From Comamonadaceae bacterium (lineage in GTDB: Bacteria; Pseudomonadota; Gammaproteobacteria; Burkholderiales; Burkholderiaceae_C), in assembly GCA_947442105.1 (NCBI GenBank), contig CANEVH010000011.1, positions 1 to 64,000 on the forward strand: DNA of 64,000 nucleotides. Reading direction: 5' to 3'. Positions within the stretch are counted from its first letter, which is position 1. Every line of letters starts with the position of its first letter. Made by a program: the position numbers and the translations under genes. The notes under the pieces were generated by a model. The model had not been told where the DNA came from and did not search any database. It saw nothing but the letters and a program-made list of their open reading frames with translations. Positions 15,416 through 27,226 of the stretch are shown piece by piece.

Positions 15416-15649
15416 ATGCAACCCACCATCACCAGCAAAGGCCAGATCACCATCCCGCGCGACTTGCGGCGCCACTTTGGCTTGCATACCGGCACGGCGG
15501 TGTGTTTTGAAATTGAGGGCGACCACATCGCACTGCGCCCGGCGCCCGCCGCGCGCGATGTGGCCGCCTCGGGCTTTGGGCTGATTCGCAGCCACCGCCC
15601 GGCGGTGCCGGCCGACTTTGATGCAGCCAGCCTGGCACAAGAGCCGTGA
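15416..15649 (+). CDS. AbrB/MazE-type antitoxin (VapB-like)
   Basis: MQPTITSKGQITIPRDLRRHFGLHTGTAVCFEIEGDHIALRP; 4-nt overlap with PIN ORF. Confidence 0.88.
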   Translation: MQPTITSKGQITIPRDLRRHFGLHTGTAVCFEIEGDHIALRPAPAARDVAASGFGLIRSHRPAVPADFDAASLAQEP

Positions 15650-16080
15650 TTGGCCTGGACACCAATGTGCTGGCGCGCTATTACGTAGCCAGCGACGACG
15701 CGCCCACACAGCAGCAAAGCCTGGCCGCCAAGGCCTTGATCGACAGCGGGCAGCGCCTGTTTGTGGCCAAAACCGTGCTGCTGGAGCTGGAATGGGTGCT
15801 GCGCGGCTACTACAAAAGCCCGGTGGCTGACGTGGTGGCGGTGCTGGAGCACCTGCTCGCCCTGCCCAATGTGGAGCTAGAAGACCGCCAAGCCTGCCAG
15901 TGGGCCACCACGGCGCTGCGCGAGGGCTTTGACTTTGCCGACGCGCTGCACCACGCCTCCTACCGCCAATGCGCCAGCGTGGCCACCTTTGACGACAAAA
16001 AATTCGCCCAGCGCGCCACGGCGAAAGCCTGGAAGCCCCCGGTGAAGCTAATGAAACCGGTGAAAGACCCCACCCCATGA
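15646..16080 (+). CDS. PIN-domain toxin (VapC-like), GTG start
   Basis: MIGLDTNVLARYYVASDD...LLELEWVLRG...FDFADALHHASYRQ...VATFDDKKFAQRA. Confidence 0.9.
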   Translation: MIGLDTNVLARYYVASDDAPTQQQSLAAKALIDSGQRLFVAKTVLLELEWVLRGYYKSPVADVVAVLEHLLALPNVELEDRQACQWATTALREGFDFADALHHASYRQCASVATFDDKKFAQRATAKAWKPPVKLMKPVKDPTP

Positions 16081-17036: not shown

Positions 17037-17082
17037 AAATCGGCGACACAATGAACCGCCGGGGGACACAAAGCGCATACCA

Positions 17083-20000
17083 ATGACACGCATTTTTGAC
17101 AACATCGACCAAGATCTGCTCACCACCTTGCGTGGCACCATGCAGATTTCGCAGCGGGCGGACTTTTGTGTGGGCTACCTAAATTTACGTGGTTGGCAAG
17201 CGATTGACGATTTGGTGCAGCCCTGGAACCCGGAAATCGGCCAGGTATGCCGCGTGTTGGTCGGTATGCAGCGCCCCCCGGCCGATGAAATCCGCGCCTT
17301 GTACCGCCAGACAGCGGACGGCGATTGGCTTGACAACGCCACCGCCAGCCGCATGAAGATGCAGTTTGCCGCCCACCTGCGCGAGCAAATCACCTTGGGA
17401 ATCCCCACTGGCAGTGACGAAGCGGGCCTGCGCCGTTTAGCGCGGCAGCTCCGCGCCAAGCAACTGGTGGTGAAACTGTTTTTGCCCTACCCCTTGCACG
17501 CCAAGTTGTATCTGCTCTTTAGAGATGACATCAATAACCCGATCACCGGCTTCGTGGGTAGTAGCAACTTGACCTTGTCGGGGCTGTCCAAACAAGGCGA
17601 ACTCAATGTGGATGTGCTGGACCATTTGGCTACGGACAAGCTCACACGGTGGTTCGACGCCCGTTGGGGCGACCGTTGGGCGCTGGACGTGTCTGAAGAC
17701 CTTGCCACCATCATCGAGACCAGTTGGGCGCGTGAAGACACCATTCCCCCGCACCACATCTACCTGAGCATGGCCTACCACCTGAGCACCGAGGCGCGTG
17801 CCGGCTTAAGCCAGTTCCGCCTGCCGGGGCGCTTTGAACAAGAGCTGTTCGAGTTTCAAAAGAGCGCGGTCAAAATTGCAGCGCGGCATCTGCACCGCCG
17901 TGGCGGGGTGATGATTGGCGATGTGGTGGGCCTGGGCAAAACCATCATGGCCACCGCACTGGCGCGCATGTTTGAAGACGATATGGGCTATGAAACCCTC
18001 ATCATCTGCCCCAAAAATCTGGAGACCATGTGGGAGGGCTACCGCACGGGCTACGGCTTGCGTGGCATGGTGTTGCCCGTGTCACAGGTCACCAAAAAGC
18101 TGCCCGACCTTAAGCGCTACCGCTTGGTGCTCATCGACGAAAGCCACAACCTGCGCAACCGCGAAGGCCGCCGCTACAAAGCCATTGCGGACTACATCAA
18201 GAGCTGTGATGCCAAAGTCATCTTGCTCACCGCCACGCCTTACAACAAGACCAAGAGCGACCTGTCATCCCAACTGCGCTTGTTTATTGACGAGCGGGCC
18301 AATATTGGCATCCGGCCAGAGCGCTTCATGCGCAAGAACGCCATGAGCGAAGCCGAGTTCGAACGCAAGCACCAATGCAAAGTCAATTCCATACTTGCCA
18401 TAGAAAAGAGCGACGAGTTTGACGATTGGCGCGAGCTCATTCGCCTCTACATGGTGCGCCGCACGCGCAGCTTCATCGTTCAGCACTACACGGCTGCCGA
18501 CGACAAGGGCAGGCGCTACATCACGGGCAAAGACGACGAAAAGCGCTATTTCCCTGTGCGCAAACCGGTGTCGCTCACCTTTGCCGTCAACGACGCGGAC
18601 CCGGCGGACCGCTACGCCCATCTTTACTCGCCCCACGTGGTGGACCAAATCAACGCGCTCCACGTACCACGCTACGGCTTGGGCTTGTACCTTGATCCCA
18701 CCGCTGAGAAAACCGCTTCCCCCGCCGAACGCAAGCACATTGAAAACCTGGGACGCGCGGGCAAGCGCTTGATGGGGTTTTGCCGAACCAACCTGTTCAA
18801 GCGACTCGAATCAAGCGGCTTTTCTTTTTTGCAGTCGATAGACCGGCATATTCTGCGCAACCAGATCTACTTGTACGCCATTGAAAACGGGCTGGACTTG
18901 CCAGTGGGAGTTTTAGACGCAGGCCTGCTGGACTTGGAGCGCGTGGACGAAGATGCCGACGGCATGGAAGGCGACCAAGAAGACCTGCTGGACGGCCTGG
19001 TAGACGCTGTACCGCAGCTTGACGCGGTGCCCGACGCCCTGGCGCGGGCCAAGGCGGTGTACGAACAATACGCCGGGCCATTCAAAAAGCGCTTCAAGTG
19101 GATTCGACCCAGTCTATTTAAGGCTGGCTTGGCGCAAGACCTTGCCCAAGACACCCAAGCACTGCGTGAACTGCTGGCCCACCAAGGCCCCTGGGAGGCC
19201 GCCAAGGACCACAAGCTACAAGCCTTTTTGCAACTGGTGACAAAAACCCATGGCAAAGACAAGGTGCTGCTGTTCACCCAATTTGCCGACACCGCTCGCT
19301 ACCTGGCGCGTGAGGCCCGCGCCGCAGGCATCACCCATGTGGAGGTGGCCACGGGTGCCAGCATAGACCCCTACGCGCTGGCATGCCGCTTTTCGCCAAG
19401 GTCTAACCAAAAGACAGTGGCTAAGGCGGACGAGGTACGGGTGTTGATTTGTACCGACGTCTTGTCCGAAGGGCAAAACCTGCAAGACAGCAATGTGGTG
19501 GTGAACTTCGACCTGCCCTGGGCCATCATCCGGCTCATTCAACGCGCCGGCCGCGTAGACCGCATTGGCCAAAAGGCCGAAGAGATTTTTTGCTACTCAA
19601 TCCTGCCCGCCGAGGGCGTGGAGCAACTGATTCAGTTGCGCTCGCGTATCCGCCAGCGCTTACAAGAGAACGCCGAAGTGGTGGGCACCGACGAAGCATT
19701 TTTTGACGACGAAGAAGCCAGCACCATACGCCACCTCTACACCGAACAACAAGGCGTGCTGGACGACGCGGACGATGAAGTGGACCTGGCCTCCTACGCC
19801 TGGCAAGTGTGGAAGCAAGCCACCCAAGACAACCCGGAGCTAGCCCGCGCCATAGAGGCTTTGCCCCCTGTGGTGTACAGCGCCAAAAGCTTTAGCCTAG
19901 ACAGTGCGCGCTTTGCGCAGCTAGGCCTTGATGCGGCCAAAGGCGGCGCGCTGGTGTACGTAAAGTCCCCCGAAGGCAACGACCACTTGGCGTGGGTGGG

Positions 20001-20469
20001 GCCTAACGGCAAGACGGTGACCGAATCCCAATTCACTGTGCTGCGCGCAGCCGAGTGCGCGCCCGGCACTCCCGCAGTGGCCCGAGCCGACCACCACCAC
20101 GACTGGGTGGCCGTTGGCCTGCAACTGGCAGCCAGCCAAGACAAGGCCGTAGGCGGAGGCTTGGGCCGCCCCAGCAGCCCGCGCAGGCGCGCCTATGAAC
20201 GCCTCAAACCCTACGCCACGGCGCAATTGAAAACCCTGTTCCGCGACGACGAGCTAGAGCGCGCCTTGGACGACATGTACCAACGCCCCCTGCTCGAAAC
20301 CGCCGCCGACATGCTCAACCGCCTGATGCGCGGCGGCGTAAATGACGACGAACTGGCGCAAGCAGTCAAGTCCTTGCGTGAAGACGGGCGCCTGACCTAC
20401 ACCGAAGACGACACCGCCTTGCGCGAGCCGCGCGTGGTGTGCTCCATGGGCTTGGTGCCAGCTGCCTAA
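17083..20469 (+). CDS. PLD-like nuclease domain fused to SNF2/RapA-type helicase (putative defence protein)
   Basis: PLD motif HAKLYLLFRDDINNPITGFVGSSNLT; helicase motifs GDVVGLGKTIMATALAR, LIDESHN, LTATPYN, ICTDVLSEGQNLQDSNVVVNFDLPW, QRAGRVDRIGQ. Confidence 0.9.
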   Translation: MTRIFDNIDQDLLTTLRGTMQISQRADFCVGYLNLRGWQAIDDLVQPWNPEIGQVCRVLVGMQRPPADEIRALYRQTADGDWLDNATASRMKMQFAAHLREQITLGIPTGSDEAGLRRLARQLRAKQLVVKLFLPYPLHAKLYLLFRDDINNPITGFVGSSNLTLSGLSKQGELNVDVLDHLATDKLTRWFDARWGDRWALDVSEDLATIIETSWAREDTIPPHHIYLSMAYHLSTEARAGLSQFRLPGRFEQELFEFQKSAVKIAARHLHRRGGVMIGDVVGLGKTIMATALARMFEDDMGYETLIICPKNLETMWEGYRTGYGLRGMVLPVSQVTKKLPDLKRYRLVLIDESHNLRNREGRRYKAIADYIKSCDAKVILLTATPYNKTKSDLSSQLRLFIDERANIGIRPERFMRKNAMSEAEFERKHQCKVNSILAIEKSDEFDDWRELIRLYMVRRTRSFIVQHYTAADDKGRRYITGKDDEKRYFPVRKPVSLTFAVNDADPADRYAHLYSPHVVDQINALHVPRYGLGLYLDPTAEKTASPAERKHIENLGRAGKRLMGFCRTNLFKRLESSGFSFLQSIDRHILRNQIYLYAIENGLDLPVGVLDAGLLDLERVDEDADGMEGDQEDLLDGLVDAVPQLDAVPDALARAKAVYEQYAGPFKKRFKWIRPSLFKAGLAQDLAQDTQALRELLAHQGPWEAAKDHKLQAFLQLVTKTHGKDKVLLFTQFADTARYLAREARAAGITHVEVATGASIDPYALACRFSPRSNQKTVAKADEVRVLICTDVLSEGQNLQDSNVVVNFDLPWAIIRLIQRAGRVDRIGQKAEEIFCYSILPAEGVEQLIQLRSRIRQRLQENAEVVGTDEAFFDDEEASTIRHLYTEQQGVLDDADDEVDLASYAWQVWKQATQDNPELARAIEALPPVVYSAKSFSLDSARFAQLGLDAAKGGALVYVKSPEGNDHLAWVGPNGKTVTESQFTVLRAAECAPGTPAVARADHHHDWVAVGLQLAASQDKAVGGGLGRPSSPRRRAYERLKPYATAQLKTLFRDDELERALDDMYQRPLLETAADMLNRLMRGGVNDDELAQAVKSLREDGRLTYTEDDTALREPRVVCSMGLVPAA

Positions 20470-22148
20470 TGCCTATGTCGCAGCACACCATTCCGTCAGC
20501 AGAAACACTGGAAGTCGAGTTCAAAAGCGACCGCGATTGCCTGAATGATGACGACCTGATCGAAGCACTTATCTGCCTCGCCAATGCCAACGGCGGCACC
20601 TTGTATTTAGGGGTGGAAAACGATGGCAGCGTCACCGGCCTGCATACCACCCGCCCGGCCAGTATTGCAGGGCTGGCCGCGCTGGTTGCGAACCGCACCG
20701 TGCCGCGCTTGCAAGTGCAGGTGCAAGAGATCCACACGCCGTCAGGCCGCGTCGCCGCCATGGCAGTGCCGCAGTGCTCGGACATCATTGCCCGATCCGA
20801 CGGCTTGGTAAAGCGCCGCCGCATCGGCGGCAAGGGCCAACCCGAGTGCGTGCCCTTCTTGCCCAGCGAATACACCAGCCGCCGCGCCGACTTCCGCTTG
20901 GTGGACATGTCAGCCGAGCCGGTGGCCGATGCCACCCTCGCCGACTTTGACCCCCTGCAACGTGCGCGCCTGCGCTCCATCATTGCCAACAACCCTCGCA
21001 GCGACAAGTCCTTGGTGGGGCTGAACGATGAACAGTTAGACGGCGCGCTCTCCCTCACCATCACACGCGCTGGCGTGCGCCAGCCCACCTTGCTGGGCCT
21101 GTTGCTGATCGGCAGCACCGACAGCTTGCGCCGCCTGGTGCCCACGCACGAGGTGTTGTTTCAGGTGCTTGATGGGACCCAAGTCAAGGTAAACGAAGGC
21201 TCTCGTGCCGCGCTGATTGAAGTGGTGGAGTGGCTGGACTTGCTCTCACGCGGCGTCAATACCGAGCAAGAATTTAACGAAGGGCTGTTCCGCATCGGCA
21301 TAGCCCGGGTGGAAGTAGACGCCCTGCGTGAAGCCATCAATAACGCACTCGTCCACCGCGACTACGCCCGCCGTGGCCCGGTGCGCGTGTGCTGGCAAAA
21401 GAACGAGCTCATCATCAGCAACCCCGGCGGCTTTGTAGATGGCGTGAGCCTGGCGAACCTGCTGACCACCGAACCCCGCCCGCGCAACCCCGCGCTGGCC
21501 GACGCCTTTAAGCGCTTAGGCCTGGTGGACCGCACAGGCCGCGGTGTGGACATGATCTACACCAGCATGCTGCGCTTTGGCCGCCCCGCGCCCGACTATG
21601 CGCAGTCCATGGCCGATCTGGTCAAGCTCAGCATCAGCACCGAGCCCGCCGACTTGGCCTTTGTGCGCATGGTGCTTCAAGAAGAGGCGCGCCAGAAGAG
21701 CGCCTTACCGGTAGAAACCCTGTTGGTGCTGACGGCTCTGCGCGAAGCGCGTCGGCTCAGCGCAGCCGACATTGCTGTGCAACTGCAATGCAGTGCGCCC
21801 CAAGCGACGGGTTTGATGGAGGCCTTGGCAGAAAGTGGATTGGTGCGTGCCCACAGCAGCGGCAGAAGTCGACAATTTACGCTGAGCCCGGCGGTCTACC
21901 GCACTCTGGGGCAAAAGGCTGAATACGTACGACAAGCGGCGTTTGAGCCAATACAACGCGTACAAATGATCAAAAACTACCTCAAAGAAAATGGCCAGAT
22001 TCGCCGCCAGGACGCGGCCGACCTGTGCCAACTGGCACCCCGCGAGGCTGGCGCCGTGCTGGAGCGCATGGTCAAAAACGGTGAAATAGTGCTCCACGGC
22101 GTACGCAAAACCGCCTATTACACCCTGCCACCCAAGAGCACGGTTTAA
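20469..22148 (+). CDS. AlbA_2 (Schlafen-like) + HATPase_c-like + C-terminal wHTH protein
   Basis: ETLEVEFKSD...ANANGGTLYLGVENDGSVTGL; REAINNALVHRDYARRGPVRVCW; IISNPGGFVDG; RTGRGVDMIY; start overlaps helicase stop (TAATG). Confidence 0.85.
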   Translation: MPMSQHTIPSAETLEVEFKSDRDCLNDDDLIEALICLANANGGTLYLGVENDGSVTGLHTTRPASIAGLAALVANRTVPRLQVQVQEIHTPSGRVAAMAVPQCSDIIARSDGLVKRRRIGGKGQPECVPFLPSEYTSRRADFRLVDMSAEPVADATLADFDPLQRARLRSIIANNPRSDKSLVGLNDEQLDGALSLTITRAGVRQPTLLGLLLIGSTDSLRRLVPTHEVLFQVLDGTQVKVNEGSRAALIEVVEWLDLLSRGVNTEQEFNEGLFRIGIARVEVDALREAINNALVHRDYARRGPVRVCWQKNELIISNPGGFVDGVSLANLLTTEPRPRNPALADAFKRLGLVDRTGRGVDMIYTSMLRFGRPAPDYAQSMADLVKLSISTEPADLAFVRMVLQEEARQKSALPVETLLVLTALREARRLSAADIAVQLQCSAPQATGLMEALAESGLVRAHSSGRSRQFTLSPAVYRTLGQKAEYVRQAAFEPIQRVQMIKNYLKENGQIRRQDAADLCQLAPREAGAVLERMVKNGEIVLHGVRKTAYYTLPPKSTV

Positions 22149-22150
22149 GC

Positions 22151-22180
22151 GGTTTATGACGCTTTATGACGCTTTATGAC
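22151..22180. repeat. Three 10-bp-phased direct repeats (G[G/C]TTTATGAC)
   Basis: ggtttatgac gctttatgac gctttatgac read directly; a fourth TTATGACGC lies at 22238-22246. Confidence 0.85.
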
Positions 22181-22226
22181 GGCGCACTCGTTTGTAAGTT
22201 ATTGAAAAATAAGGAGATTTATAAAA

Positions 22227-22277
22227 ATGTCGATAACTTATGACGCAAGCCACCCGCACCGGCAAAAAGGTCAATGA
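22227..22277 (+). promoter_or_regulatory. Possible 16-codon upstream ORF (MSITYDASHPHRQKGQ*) preceding the methylase start
   Basis: aaggag (22211-22216) spaced before ATG at 22227; TGA stop 22275-22277 overlaps the methylase ATGATG. Confidence 0.5.
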
Positions 22278-25200
22278 TGGCCAAACTCGACTTCCCCGCC
22301 TTTGAAAAGCACCTCGCCGCCTTCGACTTTGTTCGCCTGTTCATCGACATGCTGGGCTGGAACCGCGCCAGTGCGCAGGCAAGTTGGAGTGACGACGCAG
22401 CAGGCGAAACCACCTTCGCCCGCCGCACCGTGGCAGAGTTGGGCGGCGTGGTCGCCATCCAGGTGGTGATGGACGCGGGCTGGCCCGACGAGCAGCAGCG
22501 CATGCGCGTGTGGAAGCACATTGCCAGCAGCCACGCCGAAAACCTACTCATCTTCACCGACCAAAGAAGCGGCGCCGGCATGAGCCAGTGGTACTGGGTA
22601 AAGCGCGACAAACACCCCGACACCGGCAAACCCCGCCTCACATCGCGCCGCCACGAATACTTCAAAGGCCAGCCCGTCGATCTGTTTGCCAGCAAGCTCC
22701 AAGCCATGGTGGTGGAGCTGTCTGAGCTGGACGCATCCGGTCGCCTGCCCGTGCTGGAGGCCGCGCGCCGCATAGCCGCTGCGCTGGACGTCGAGAAAAC
22801 CACCAAAAAATTCTTTGCCGCCTACCAGCAGCAGCACCTGGCGCTGCTGGAGCACATCCACGGCATTGACAACGAGCGCGACAAACGCTGGTACGCCAGC
22901 GTGCTGCTCAACCGCCTGATGTTTGTCTGGTTTTTGCAGAAAAAAGGCTTTTTGCAAGACCAAACTGGCAGCCCGCGCTTTGACTACCTGCGCGAGCAGC
23001 TACACCACAGCGCGCAACGCGGCGACAACCGTTTCTATGGCGAGTTTTTGGCCGCCCTGTTTTTTGAAGCCTTTGCCAAGCCCGAGGCCGACCGCAGCCC
23101 CGCCGCCTTGGCGCTGACCGGGCGCATCCCCTACCTCAACGGCGGCTTGTTTTTGCCCCACAAGCTGGAGCTGGACGCCGACCACGCCCTGCGCCTTGGC
23201 AAAACTTTGCATGTGGCAGACGCCGCCTTCAAAGGCGTCTTTGAGCTGTTTGCCAGCTTCACCTGGCACCTGGACGACACGCCCGGCGGCGATGCAGACG
23301 AGATCAACCCCGACGTGCTGGGCTACATTTTTGAGAAATACATCAACCAAAAAGCCTTTGGCGCCTACTACACCCGGCCCGAGATCACCAGCTATCTGGC
23401 CGACCGCAGCATCCACCAGCTCATTTTGGAGCGCGTGTACGAGCCCGCCATGCCCGAGTTGGGCCTCAAAGAAATCAAGTTCGCCACCGTGTCCGACCTG
23501 CTGGCCCGCATGGACGCACGCACCGCGCTCAAGCTGGTCAACACGGTGCTGCCCAGCATCACCATCCTGGACCCGGCGGTGGGCTCGGGCGCGTTTTTGG
23601 TGGCCGCGCTCAAAAGTCTCATCAACGTCTACTACGCCGTGGTGGGCCGCGCCGAACTGGGTGCCAGCGCCGAGCTGGACAAGTGGCTCAAAGCCATCAG
23701 AAAAAACCACACCAGTGTGGGCTACTACATCAAACGCCGCATCGTCACCGACAACCTGCACGGCGTGGACATCATGGAAGAGGCCTGCGAAATCGCCAAA
23801 CTGCGCCTGTTTTTGTCCATGGTGGCCAGCGTGCGCCGGGTGGAAGACCTGGAACCCCTGCCCAATATCGACTTCAACATCTTGCCCGGCAACTCGCTGG
23901 TGGGGCTGATGCGGGTGGACGCTCAGCACTTTGATCGCAAAAACACAGCCATGACACAAATGAGCCTGTTTGCAGAAACGCAGGCTCGCTCATTCACACA
24001 ACTCTTAGTCGAAAAAAATCGTCAGCTTGATACCTATCGCCACCACGCTGACCGACTTGGGAAGACGGTTGATTTGAGAGGCCTGCGAGACGGAATTGAT
24101 GCAGAGATGCGCAGCGCCAATGTCGTGATGAACGAAATGCTGAGGGACGAATTTGAGAAATACGGTATCAAGTTTGAACAGGCCACATGGGATGCTGCAA
24201 AAAGAACCCTTGGCAAACCCAAAAAGCGGCTCGTTGAGCGGGCGGATATTGATGCACAAACCCCTTTCCACTGGGGCTATGTGTTTGACGACATTGTGCA
24301 AAAGCGCGGCGGCTTTGACATTATTTTGGCCAACCCGCCGTGGGAAGTGTTCAAGCCCCAGGCCAAAGAGTTTTTTGCCGAGTATTCCGACGTGGTCAGC
24401 AAAAACAAAATGACCATCAAAGAGTTTGAAAAAGAACAAGCCACCCTGCTGCAAAACGCCGAAGTGCGCGCGGCGTGGCTGGCGTATGAGAGCCGGTTTC
24501 CGCACATGAGCCAGTGGTTTCGCGCCGCACCCGAGTTCAAGCACCAAAGCGCCGTGGTGGGCGGCAAAAAAACGGGCAGCGACATCAACCTCTACAAACT
24601 GTTTGTGGAGCGCAGCTTTCACCTGCTGCGCGCGGGCGGCCACTGCGGCATCGTTATTCCCAGCGGCATTTACACCGATCTGGGGGCCAAGGGCCTGCGC
24701 GATTTGCTGTTTGGTCAGACGCAGATTGAGGGCCTGTTTTGCTTTGAAAACCGCAAAGAGATTTTTGAAGGCGTACACCGCAGCTTCAAGTTCGTCGTAC
24801 TCACCTTTCAAAAAGCTTCCACAGCCCGCTTGCAAACGGCAGGCGAGCGCAACGCCAGTGCCCCGCCCGACGACCTGCTGGCCGCGCAGGCCGTAGAAGC
24901 GCAAGGCGGCGCCACCGGCACCGCGCGATTTCCGGCGGCCTTTATGCGGCACGACGTGGCCGATCTAGACCACTTTCCGCACGAGGGCGCGCTGTGGCTG
25001 GAGGTAGAACTCATCAAGCGCCTGTCACCCGACAGCCATTCGGTGATGGAATTTAAGCAGATCAGCGAATTGGGCATTGCCGAGAAGCTGACGAAATTCA
25101 CCCCACTCGGAAAGTGGGGCAAGGGCGATCCCCTATCGATTTCACGTGAATTTATGTCTTCGGAAGATCACCCCTTGTTCAACCACGACGGCCAAGGCCT

Positions 25201-25867
25201 GGTGGTTTGGGAGGGCAAGATGATGGGCCAGTTTGATGGCCGGCTAGAAAAACCAAAGTGGTGGATTTCTGAAGAGAAATTCAAAACCACCCGGTTTTTC
25301 CCGCGTGACGACTGGCATCACTACCGTATTGCAATTCGACGCATTGCACGCAACACGGACGAGCGAACACTTTTTTGCACCGTCCTGCCGCCGAACTCGG
25401 TCGTCGTGCATTCGCTGTTTGTAAATGTGGACAAGATACTTGATCCGCAAAGCAGCTTGTATCTGTGTGCCGCACTGAATTCGTTCGTCGTAGATTATTT
25501 CATTCGGCAGCAAGTGACTTCCAACGTCAGCCAGTTTGCAATTCACCTACTTCCGGTGCCGAGACCTGTTGCAAGTGATGCTGCCTTTCGGACAGTTGTC
25601 AGCCGCGCCGCCCGCCTTATCTGCACCACCCCTGAGTTCGACGCCCTCGCCCTGTCCGTAGGCCTCACAGGCCACCAAGACGGCGCCACCGACCCCACCG
25701 AGCGCGCCAGACTCCGCGCCGAGCTAGACGGCCTGGTGGCCCACCTCTACGGCCTGAGCGAGGAAGAGTTCACCCACATTCTGGGCACTTTTCCGCTGGT
25801 GGCGCAGCCGGTGAAGGTGGCTGCGCACAATGCCTACCGCGATGTTGAACGAGGGTTAATCAAATGA
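22274..25867 (+). CDS. Eco57I-type N6-adenine DNA methyltransferase / type IIG-like restriction-modification protein
   Basis: Motif I TILDPAVGSGAFLVAAL; motif IV FDIILANPPWEVF; EKYINQKAFGAYYTRPEITSYLADRSI; C-terminal putative target-recognition region. Confidence 0.9.
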   Translation: MMAKLDFPAFEKHLAAFDFVRLFIDMLGWNRASAQASWSDDAAGETTFARRTVAELGGVVAIQVVMDAGWPDEQQRMRVWKHIASSHAENLLIFTDQRSGAGMSQWYWVKRDKHPDTGKPRLTSRRHEYFKGQPVDLFASKLQAMVVELSELDASGRLPVLEAARRIAAALDVEKTTKKFFAAYQQQHLALLEHIHGIDNERDKRWYASVLLNRLMFVWFLQKKGFLQDQTGSPRFDYLREQLHHSAQRGDNRFYGEFLAALFFEAFAKPEADRSPAALALTGRIPYLNGGLFLPHKLELDADHALRLGKTLHVADAAFKGVFELFASFTWHLDDTPGGDADEINPDVLGYIFEKYINQKAFGAYYTRPEITSYLADRSIHQLILERVYEPAMPELGLKEIKFATVSDLLARMDARTALKLVNTVLPSITILDPAVGSGAFLVAALKSLINVYYAVVGRAELGASAELDKWLKAIRKNHTSVGYYIKRRIVTDNLHGVDIMEEACEIAKLRLFLSMVASVRRVEDLEPLPNIDFNILPGNSLVGLMRVDAQHFDRKNTAMTQMSLFAETQARSFTQLLVEKNRQLDTYRHHADRLGKTVDLRGLRDGIDAEMRSANVVMNEMLRDEFEKYGIKFEQATWDAAKRTLGKPKKRLVERADIDAQTPFHWGYVFDDIVQKRGGFDIILANPPWEVFKPQAKEFFAEYSDVVSKNKMTIKEFEKEQATLLQNAEVRAAWLAYESRFPHMSQWFRAAPEFKHQSAVVGGKKTGSDINLYKLFVERSFHLLRAGGHCGIVIPSGIYTDLGAKGLRDLLFGQTQIEGLFCFENRKEIFEGVHRSFKFVVLTFQKASTARLQTAGERNASAPPDDLLAAQAVEAQGGATGTARFPAAFMRHDVADLDHFPHEGALWLEVELIKRLSPDSHSVMEFKQISELGIAEKLTKFTPLGKWGKGDPLSISREFMSSEDHPLFNHDGQGLVVWEGKMMGQFDGRLEKPKWWISEEKFKTTRFFPRDDWHHYRIAIRRIARNTDERTLFCTVLPPNSVVVHSLFVNVDKILDPQSSLYLCAALNSFVVDYFIRQQVTSNVSQFAIHLLPVPRPVASDAAFRTVVSRAARLICTTPEFDALALSVGLTGHQDGATDPTERARLRAELDGLVAHLYGLSEEEFTHILGTFPLVAQPVKVAAHNAYRDVERGLIK

Positions 25868-25938
25868 TGCTGGATTCCATCAAGATCAAAAACTTCAAGG
25901 CTGTGCGCGACTCTGGCACGGTAGTACGCTCCATCTGA
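25864..25938 (+). pseudogene. N-terminal stump of an AAA/SMC-like (AAA_15/OLD-type) ATPase gene, 24 codons
   Basis: ATGA overlap with methylase stop; translation MMLDSIKIKNFKAVRDSGTVVRSI* resembles the N-terminus of SMC-like ATPases (I-x-N-F-[KR]-x-[FV]); no continuation follows. Confidence 0.6.
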
Positions 25939-25953
25939 AGTGAAAGGTTCACC

Positions 25954-26451
25954 ATGGGCATAGAAACACTCAGCGATGAAAGAATAGTTCAGCTACTTGC
26001 TTTGCCAAAAAAGGTTGAAAACCCGCAGTCGCGCGAAAAAGCAGAAGGCAAGCACACGCGACGTGACTACCGCGTAGTCAGCAAAGACGGCGCGCACCGG
26101 TTCACTCTGTTTACCCGCCAAAGCACCAAAATTGCCAACGGGTTCAGCGCGGGCTTGCTGTGGCATGCCAAGTCTGGGGAGGATGTGATTTTGCTGCGAT
26201 GCAATGGCAGCGACCACCCACATCCCAATGTGCTGGAGCGCCAGCGGATTGAATACCGCTGTCATGTGCACCTGTTGACGGAGCGGTACCTACTGGCGAA
26301 TCGGAAGGGGGAAGGGTTTGCTGAAGTTACAGAGGCCTACAACACCCTATCAGGTGCTTTGCACGAGTTGGTGCACAGGGCCAATATAGAGGGTTTAACG
26401 ACCGATGCCGATGGACCGCAGACCCCGGACCTATTTGGAGATTCAAAATGA
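25954..26451 (+). CDS. Uncharacterised 165-aa protein (possibly DUF6978-like), partner of downstream gene
   Basis: Intact ORF with RBS-like aaagg upstream; stop overlaps next start (ATGA). Confidence 0.7.
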   Translation: MGIETLSDERIVQLLALPKKVENPQSREKAEGKHTRRDYRVVSKDGAHRFTLFTRQSTKIANGFSAGLLWHAKSGEDVILLRCNGSDHPHPNVLERQRIEYRCHVHLLTERYLLANRKGEGFAEVTEAYNTLSGALHELVHRANIEGLTTDADGPQTPDLFGDSK

Positions 26452-27221
26452 ACGCAACCGATATGCAAGCGACTCTCTGCAAAGCACTATGCGGCAGTGT
26501 GACGGTGCACGCGCGTGGCGACGCACTATGGCAGATAGATACGCCTTGGACTTTTCCTGACGGTGATGGCTATTCGATTTATGTGTCGCAGGCACCAGCG
26601 GGAGGATTGCGCATCAGCGATCAGGGCTTGACGATGATGCGCCTGAGCTATGAGAACGATATTTCCAAGTTGCGAGAAGGCACACGGGGGCGTTTGCTGA
26701 CCCAAGTGCTGGCGGATGCGGGCTTGTCTGAGGAAGATGGGGAGTTTTATCTTGATTCGACGACAGACAACTTAGGCACGAGTGTGATGCGCATTGGGCA
26801 GGCGTTAACACGGGTTCATGATTTGACGTTTTTGAACCGTCTGCGCGTGGAGAGTACGTTTTACGAAGATTTGCGAGAGAAATTGCAGACGGTGGTGGGT
26901 GCTGAGCGCTTGACGGAGGGCTATGTGGTACCAGGCGTAGCCAACGCACGTGACTATCCGGTCGATTACTTTGTAATGGGTGGGGCAGCGCCTTTGTATT
27001 TGTTTGGCGTGCCAAACCGAGACAAGGCTCGTCTTGCCACCATCATCTTGCAGCACTTGACGCGCGCGGGCCAGGATTTCAACTCCATGGTGGTTTTTCA
27101 GAATGCTGCCGACTTGCCGCGCGCCGATCTGGGGCGGCTCATGAATGCTGCCAACGACATGATTGATTCGCTAGACGCAACCGACGACTTTGAACGCAAG
27201 CTGTTGCGGAGGGTCAACTAG
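26448..27221 (+). CDS. DUF1828-domain-like protein
   Basis: [36 protein letters not shown] is reminiscent of DUF1828; 4-nt overlap with upstream ORF. Confidence 0.65.
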
Positions 27222-27226
27222 GCACG

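Follow-up and report, generated by a model that had tools for sequence, protein, structure and literature searches.

The block of five intact genes between the core genes oxyR and ubiA in a 64,000-nucleotide stretch of DNA from a Comamonadaceae bacterium (assembly GCA_947442105.1, contig CANEVH010000011.1, positions 1 to 64,000; hereafter the window) probably encodes an ATP-dependent restriction-modification (R-M) system with a two-protein core and exchangeable accessory genes. The core comprises P0001, a predicted restriction subunit that combines an HKD/PLD nuclease with a RapA-like SNF2 translocase, and P0003, an N6-adenine DNA methylase with its own target recognition region (Table 1). Judging by these components, its most likely role is a compact form of anti-phage defense, joining an ATP-driven DNA-cutting motor to a DNA-marking enzyme. 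An earlier note on this DNA had taken the PLD-SNF2 helicase, a Schlafen AlbA_2 protein (P0002) and the methylase as a triplet forming one unit; comparison of gene neighborhoods recovers instead a conserved pair, the HKD-SNF2 helicase plus the methylase, with the AlbA_2 gene as a mobile accessory.

The pairing is strict: an N6-methylase lies behind the intact helicase, on the same strand, in all 32 loci with enough downstream sequence (21 on genome contigs, 8 on plasmids, two from further genomes and one distant paralogue in the same genome), either directly or after one or two small genes. Two of the methylases at plasmid loci are shortened or interrupted by insertion elements, the helicase is itself broken in two contig loci (L035 and L036), and two complete plasmids, of 20.6 kb and 17.7 kb, carry the pair. 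Among 16 other carrier genomes DUF499 is absent from 12, PglZ from 14 and both from 11, and because of this last count the helicase-methylase core seems self-sufficient, with no third partner needed. A missing ATPase, which the earlier note had allowed for, seems likewise unnecessary for the core. The ATPase stump and the DUF pair behind the methylase belong to an exchangeable downstream slot.

Both core proteins retain complete motifs. Examination of their relatives showed that: 1) H139, K141, GSSN (159-162), the Walker A motif GLGK (283-286), DESH (352-355) and QR-G-R-DR (820-827) of P0001 are invariant in 31 relatives of 26-90% identity, gathered from genome contigs, plasmids and class-level genomes. 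The nearest solved structure to the P0001 model is RapA, in agreement with sequence searches, and its best PADLOC match is the candidate C3a139 (HKD+Snf2), at 146 bits over part of the model only. 2) DPA-GSG (433-439) and NPP (687-689) of P0003 are invariant in 26 relatives of 27-81% identity; the nearest fold to the P0003 model is BrxX/PglX, and by sequence it is closest to BsaXI and BrxX. 3) The N-terminal part of P0003 is modeled as a small alpha/beta domain, and from its predicted topology we infer a degenerate nuclease fold; in a sequence-level test across the same 26 relatives residues 1-145 lacked the conserved nuclease residues of a D...(D/E)xK set. PADLOC assigns P0003 to the REase_MTase_IIG family, whose model one relative matches over its full length, and given the absence of these residues the type IIG label does not imply that P0003 cuts DNA.

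The methylases fall into two classes, A (P0003-like) and B, which are ~30% identical overall and ~45% identical over residues 131-390. Mapped onto the helicase tree, which comes from a short tree search and has several long branches outside the proteobacterial group, the class label requires 8 changes, against a mean of 8.5 for shuffled labels, and at least 6 of these changes are forced by well-supported branches. Class B methylases accompany helicases 86-87% identical to P0001 (L014, L030), and class A methylases accompany those of L034 (90%) and L038 (86%). The helicase has thus been re-paired repeatedly with methylases only ~30% identical to each other, which is a new observation. Also new is the exchange of recognition domains between methylases: class B proteins are 83-93% identical over residues 131-560 and often only 20-40% identical in the recognition region, and the DNA match between the window and L034 (82-84%) breaks over this region of P0003 and then resumes. 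The DNA of the Rhodoferax locus L038 matches throughout at 79%, so that a common target for P0003 and the Rhodoferax methylase is probable. Plasmids of Synechocystis PCC 6803 and 7338 (L042/L049) are 93.5% identical in DNA over the helicase, VapBC and the first ~105 methylase codons, after which the methylase class switches. This junction suggests that the methylase has to fit the helicase through its N-terminal domain; a breakpoint near codon 105 may also have arisen by chance.

Further copies of the core were seen in several settings. The genome under study has a second, distant HKD-SNF2 and PglX-like methylase pair on contig 10 (L053:8999-18978), with an integrase-like fragment upstream and a Bro-N protein (PADLOC PDC-S13) and an AAA protein downstream. 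One Giesbergeria assembly carries two helicase copies (L020 and L024), paired with a class B methylase in one case and with a class A methylase in the other. In another locus (L033:3-269) the helicase is preceded by a C-terminal methylase fragment, 71% identical to residues 1101-1189 of P0003, suggesting tandem or rearranged copies.

Indirect support for site-specific methylation comes from a relative on the Synechocystis plasmid pSYSX, which encodes both M.Ssp6803IV and M.Ssp6803V (PMC6604393). M.Ssp6803IV produces GAm6AGGC, with 1446 of the 1451 sites marked, and M.Ssp6803V is slr6095, assigned to the type I system slr6095-6097 (PMC7296061). The plasmid gene table, incomplete by its own description, lists two DNA methylases, a type I enzyme at 88-90 kb and, at 47.8-51.1 kb, the one linked to the helicase; since M.Ssp6803V is the type I enzyme, the helicase-linked methylase would by elimination be the one that makes GAm6AGGC. 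The site GAAGGC is asymmetric, and as adenine is absent from its complement, marking is possible on one strand only. We had considered slr6095 as the pSYSX homologue of P0003 and rejected it, as it is the type I methylase and the homologue is the other one. The locus tag slr6050 and a reported essentiality also belong to the background here and do not enter the evidence.

Among the accessory genes, an AlbA_2 gene (that of P0002 in the window) occupies the slot between helicase and methylase in nine loci (the window, L015, L018, L022, L023, L025, L028, L032 and L034), and its presence or absence changes 7 times on the helicase tree; its product is likely an accessory protein, a regulator or a backup effector. 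The label AlbA_2/HATPase/winged-helix given earlier is borne out by Pfam for the first two domains, and the winged-helix matches in the C-terminal region are weak. Within the operon core there is one real gap (22149-22273), which follows this gene, and at its start lies an operator-like array of TTTATGACG units with exact 10-bp spacing (Table 1). The corresponding gaps of L034, L018 and L032 have three-unit 10-bp arrays of their own (p 0.003-0.007 against shuffles), and in the class A loci seen to lack an AlbA_2 gene there is essentially no gap between helicase and methylase. Taken together, the AlbA_2 gene and the repeat array look like a regulator-operator cassette, a linkage newly observed here, and the TTTATGACG repeats are possible binding sites of the AlbA_2/winged-helix protein. 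Three operator repeats are known to repress a restriction locus via RptR, a regulator unrelated to P0002 (PMC12255303).

Apart from the AlbA_2-HATPase-winged-helix gene, class A loci have nothing, VapBC (in cyanobacteria) or a KilA-N protein (L038) between helicase and methylase. In proteobacterial class B loci a different AlbA_2-HATPase protein often lies behind the methylase, with a DprA-like gene next in several. The slot behind class A methylases holds an ABC ATPase plus DUF4276 in L019, L027, L034, L038, L043 and L054, an ATPase with other or no recognized partners in L029 and L039, a larger AAA protein in L018 and L022, or other genes. The AAA ATPase stump reported earlier in the window does exist and aligns with the N-termini of the intact ABC ATPases found at the same position in L034, L019, L027, L038, L039 and L043, that of L034 matching PADLOC HEC-01A. 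By this alignment the stump is the N-terminus of the ABC ATPase-DUF4276 module that is intact in relatives and here replaced by a DUF6978/DUF1828 pair, again a new observation. What had been described as a DUF1828-like pair is so for P0005, while P0004 is instead a weak DUF6978 match. The two genes overlap by 4 nucleotides and have the adjacent M24A and M24B arrangement that PADLOC requires for PDC-M24, the M24A match being weak and phage homologues matching as well. Pseudomonas phage 5399 (L090:3480-4771) has a homologous pair close behind cI, 44% identical to P0004 and 48% identical to P0005 over its full length, with the identical 4-nucleotide overlap. The position close behind cI is a usual place for prophage defense genes, and a staphylococcal phage-like plasmid has a DUF1828 gene between an S24-type repressor and an integrase. 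Among 348 genomes of the same order P0005 relatives were found in this genome only, and among 399 genomes of the same phylum DUF6978 was found in two, in one of which (G769) it lies inside what appears from gene order and sizes to be a type I restriction locus.

That the block is inserted between oxyR and ubiA, as had been proposed, holds up on comparison with 17 same-genus genomes having a ubiA match: the oxyR-ubiA gap is 0-100 bp in 15 of them and ~1 kb in the other two, so that the window carries an insertion of ~10.2 kb. The GC (guanine plus cytosine) fraction is 0.55-0.61 across most of the block and 0.63-0.67 outside. All five open reading frames are open at the coordinates first given for them, on the same strand, and Pfam agrees with the original labels of PLD+SNF2 helicase, AlbA_2-HATPase protein and Eco57I methylase. 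A MazE-like antitoxin and PIN toxin pair (15416-16080) is inserted nearby, between recG and oxyR, whose spacing is ~10-40 bp in the seven congeners that show both genes.

Table 1. Features of the oxyR-ubiA block, in window coordinates.
Feature	Position	Strand	Basis
Inserted block, oxyR to ubiA	17037..27226	.	oxyR-ubiA adjacency in 15/17 same-genus genomes; junctions read directly
P0001, HKD/PLD nuclease + RapA-like SNF2 translocase, 1128 aa; predicted restriction subunit	17083..20469	+	Pfam PLDc_2, SNF2-rel_dom, Helicase_C
P0002, Schlafen AlbA_2 - HATPase_c_4 - winged-helix protein, up to 569 aa	20439..22148	+	Pfam SLFN_AlbA_2, HATPase_c_4; weak C-terminal winged-helix matches
Operator-like array, three TTTATGACG units, exact 10-bp spacing	22153..22182	+	p=0.003 vs dinucleotide shuffles; further TTATGACGC at 22238-22246
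P0003, N6-adenine DNA methylase with target recognition region, 1197 aa	22274..25867	+	Pfam Eco57I
Methylase target recognition region, residues ~929-1110	25058..25603	+	Exchanged relative to closest homologue: L034 DNA match breaks, resumes; L038 matches through
ABC ATPase stump, 23 codons, lost before Walker A, reads MLDSIKIKNFKAVRDSGTVVRSI and then stop	25867..25938	+	Aligns with first ~20 residues of intact ATPases
P0004, DUF6978-like, 165 aa, first gene of swapped-in pair	25954..26451	+	Pfam PF22398 E=1.5e-6, below cut-off; PADLOC PDC-M24A E=9e-4
P0005, DUF1828, 257 aa, second gene of pair	26448..27221	+	Pfam DUF1828 E=5e-20; PADLOC PDC-M24B E=5e-15

We propose that P0003 would recognize a short, probably asymmetric site through its C-terminal recognition region and mark an adenine on host DNA. 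At an unmarked site its conserved N-terminal part would recruit or activate P0001, which would then move along DNA with ATP and cut with its PLD nuclease. The trigger is likely to be the meeting or dimerization of two complexes, because an HKD nuclease with a single motif should require two copies for an active site; translocation by P0001, and cutting when two nuclease copies meet, are suggested by analogy with SauUSI and CglI/NgoAVII. P0002 most likely sets methylase expression by binding the 10-bp repeats that precede the methylase gene, and it may double as a backup effector. Downstream of the methylase, the exchangeable slot would supply an independent second defense, which is the ABC ATPase plus DUF4276 in relatives and here the prophage-type DUF6978/DUF1828 pair.

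Four points weigh against this scheme. The structure models of P0001 and P0003 are of medium confidence (predicted local distance difference test scores of 66 and 67); by the shuffle test only 4 of 8 loci have a significant 10-bp repeat array, the four others being not significant; GAAGGC is linked to the pSYSX gene by elimination only, and that methylase is of class B, so that the motif is not transferable to the window; and the literature found reports neither phage nor methylation experiments on a homologue of P0001. An unlikely, though the most serious, rival is that the system acts like BREX or Hma/BREX-related systems, the methylase marking self and P0001 blocking phage DNA replication or serving a larger complex without simple site-dependent cutting. 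Such an action would suit the nearest folds of both proteins, which belong to BREX-type components or lie close to them (a RapA-like helicase and PglX/BrxX), the HKD-SNF2 fusions described in Type-2 BREX-related systems (PMC12839542), and the presence in the same genome of a BREX locus (L095, contig 4) with BrxC, methylase, PglZ and BrxL, in which an ATPase and one more gene separate the methylase from PglZ. It fits poorly with the lack of DUF499 or PglZ in most carrier genomes and with a nuclease domain that is fused to the helicase and invariant in its motif. Membership of BREX itself was rejected, PglZ and BrxC being present only in the separate contig 4 locus, as was membership of the Hma/BREX-related group: the block has its HKD-SNF2 helicase and N6-methylase, but the DUF499 ATPase (PF04465) is absent from the genome and from 12 of the 16 other carriers.

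Decay of the island to a state without current function is improbable: the ABC ATPase is indeed reduced to 23 codons and some relatives have the broken helicases of L035 and L036, yet the five genes are all open and their motifs complete, and the lost module has been replaced by an intact pair. Slightly less probable still is that P0003 is a type IIG enzyme that cuts and marks alone while the helicase is a separate defense gene merely traveling with it. The PADLOC placement of P0003, with its full-length match in a relative, speaks for this, and it is opposed by the absence of the acidic/(D/E)xK set from the methylase N-terminus (~130 residues), on which we rejected type IIG membership, and by the intact helicase never occurring without a methylase where this can be judged. 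The least probable is a divergent DISARM system, with which the component classes (SNF2 helicase, PLD, N6-methylase) agree. The earlier note had seen no drmB (DUF1998)-like gene, and a search of the whole genome bears this out, as MZB/DUF1998 (PF09369) is absent while the same search was positive in 8 control genomes; moreover, PLD is fused to the helicase, and DrmD models are matched only partially and far below cut-off (NCBIfam DISARM_DrmD, 119 bits against a cut-off of 610, in the C-terminal helicase part of P0001 only). DISARM membership was therefore rejected, and so was that of ARMADA/YprA, which needs a YprA-family helicase with MZB.

The ATP-dependent R-M reading thus remains the preferred one, and a bolder version of it, whose chances we put a little below even, is that the block represents a distinct, minimal and widespread type: an HKD-SNF2 motor with interchangeable and very different methylases joined via their N-terminal domain, a regulator-operator cassette and an accessory slot that captures defense modules, including a prophage one, the whole being a stripped-down relative of BREX, Hma and DISARM. 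In BREX, Hma/BREX-related systems and DISARM a RapA-like helicase and a PglX-like methylase are common, and several further proteins are required whose roles are unclear; a stand-alone two-protein version would make it possible to establish by biochemistry what the helicase-methylase pair basically does. The swaps seen in nature, namely two methylase classes on near-identical helicases and the Synechocystis switch near codon 105, point to a docking surface and to a specificity changeable by exchange of a single gene.

The block has the features of ATP-dependent R-M in the broad sense, a motor, a nuclease and a cognate methylase with a recognition domain, as predicted from its domains. Type ISP enzymes such as LlaGI are alike in having a nuclease, a translocating motor, an N6-methylase, a recognition domain and one-strand marking, but these lie in a single chain with an Mrr-type nuclease, whereas the window system is made of two proteins with a PLD nuclease. 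The PLD-helicase enzymes SauUSI (PMC7913695) and CglI/NgoAVII (PMC4267653, PMC5737866) couple ATP hydrolysis to movement and cutting. SauUSI, a type IV enzyme, likewise carries on a single chain an N-terminal PLD and then a helicase-type motor; it reads methylated DNA by its own recognition domain without a methylase partner, whereas the motor of the window system always has one. CglI/NgoAVII share a PLD-type nuclease, a helicase ATPase, a methylase and an asymmetric site, but have nuclease and helicase as two distinct proteins assembled into R2H2 complexes, while those of the window are fused and accompanied by an N6-adenine methylase with its own recognition region. Type-2 BREX-related (Hma-like) systems have the same nuclease-helicase fusion beside an N6-methylase, and BREX and BREX-related loci have Schlafen-HATPase-winged-helix and OLD-ABC genes for auxiliary effectors, but the Type-2 systems center on the DUF499 ATPase, missing from this genome, and carry DUF3780 (PMC12839542). 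PADLOC C3a139, HEC-01 and PDC-M24 are the best library matches of P0001, of a relative's ATPase of the lost type and of P0004/P0005, respectively, and these labels are candidates only. A stand-alone helicase-methylase pair is not described in the open-access literature found, and it may have a name elsewhere. The original proposal of a methylation-linked architecture, related to DISARM and BREX but distinct from them, agrees with the common component classes and the missing defining features; the kinship itself stands as far as these classes and the RapA and BrxX/PglX folds go, with the closest relatives being the Hma/BREX-related Type-2 systems and the ATP-dependent PLD-helicase restriction enzymes rather than DISARM. 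We conclude that the block is best regarded as a variant of ATP-dependent R-M, whose core folds are related to those of BREX, Hma/BREX-related systems and DISARM and which departs from all three in their defining features.

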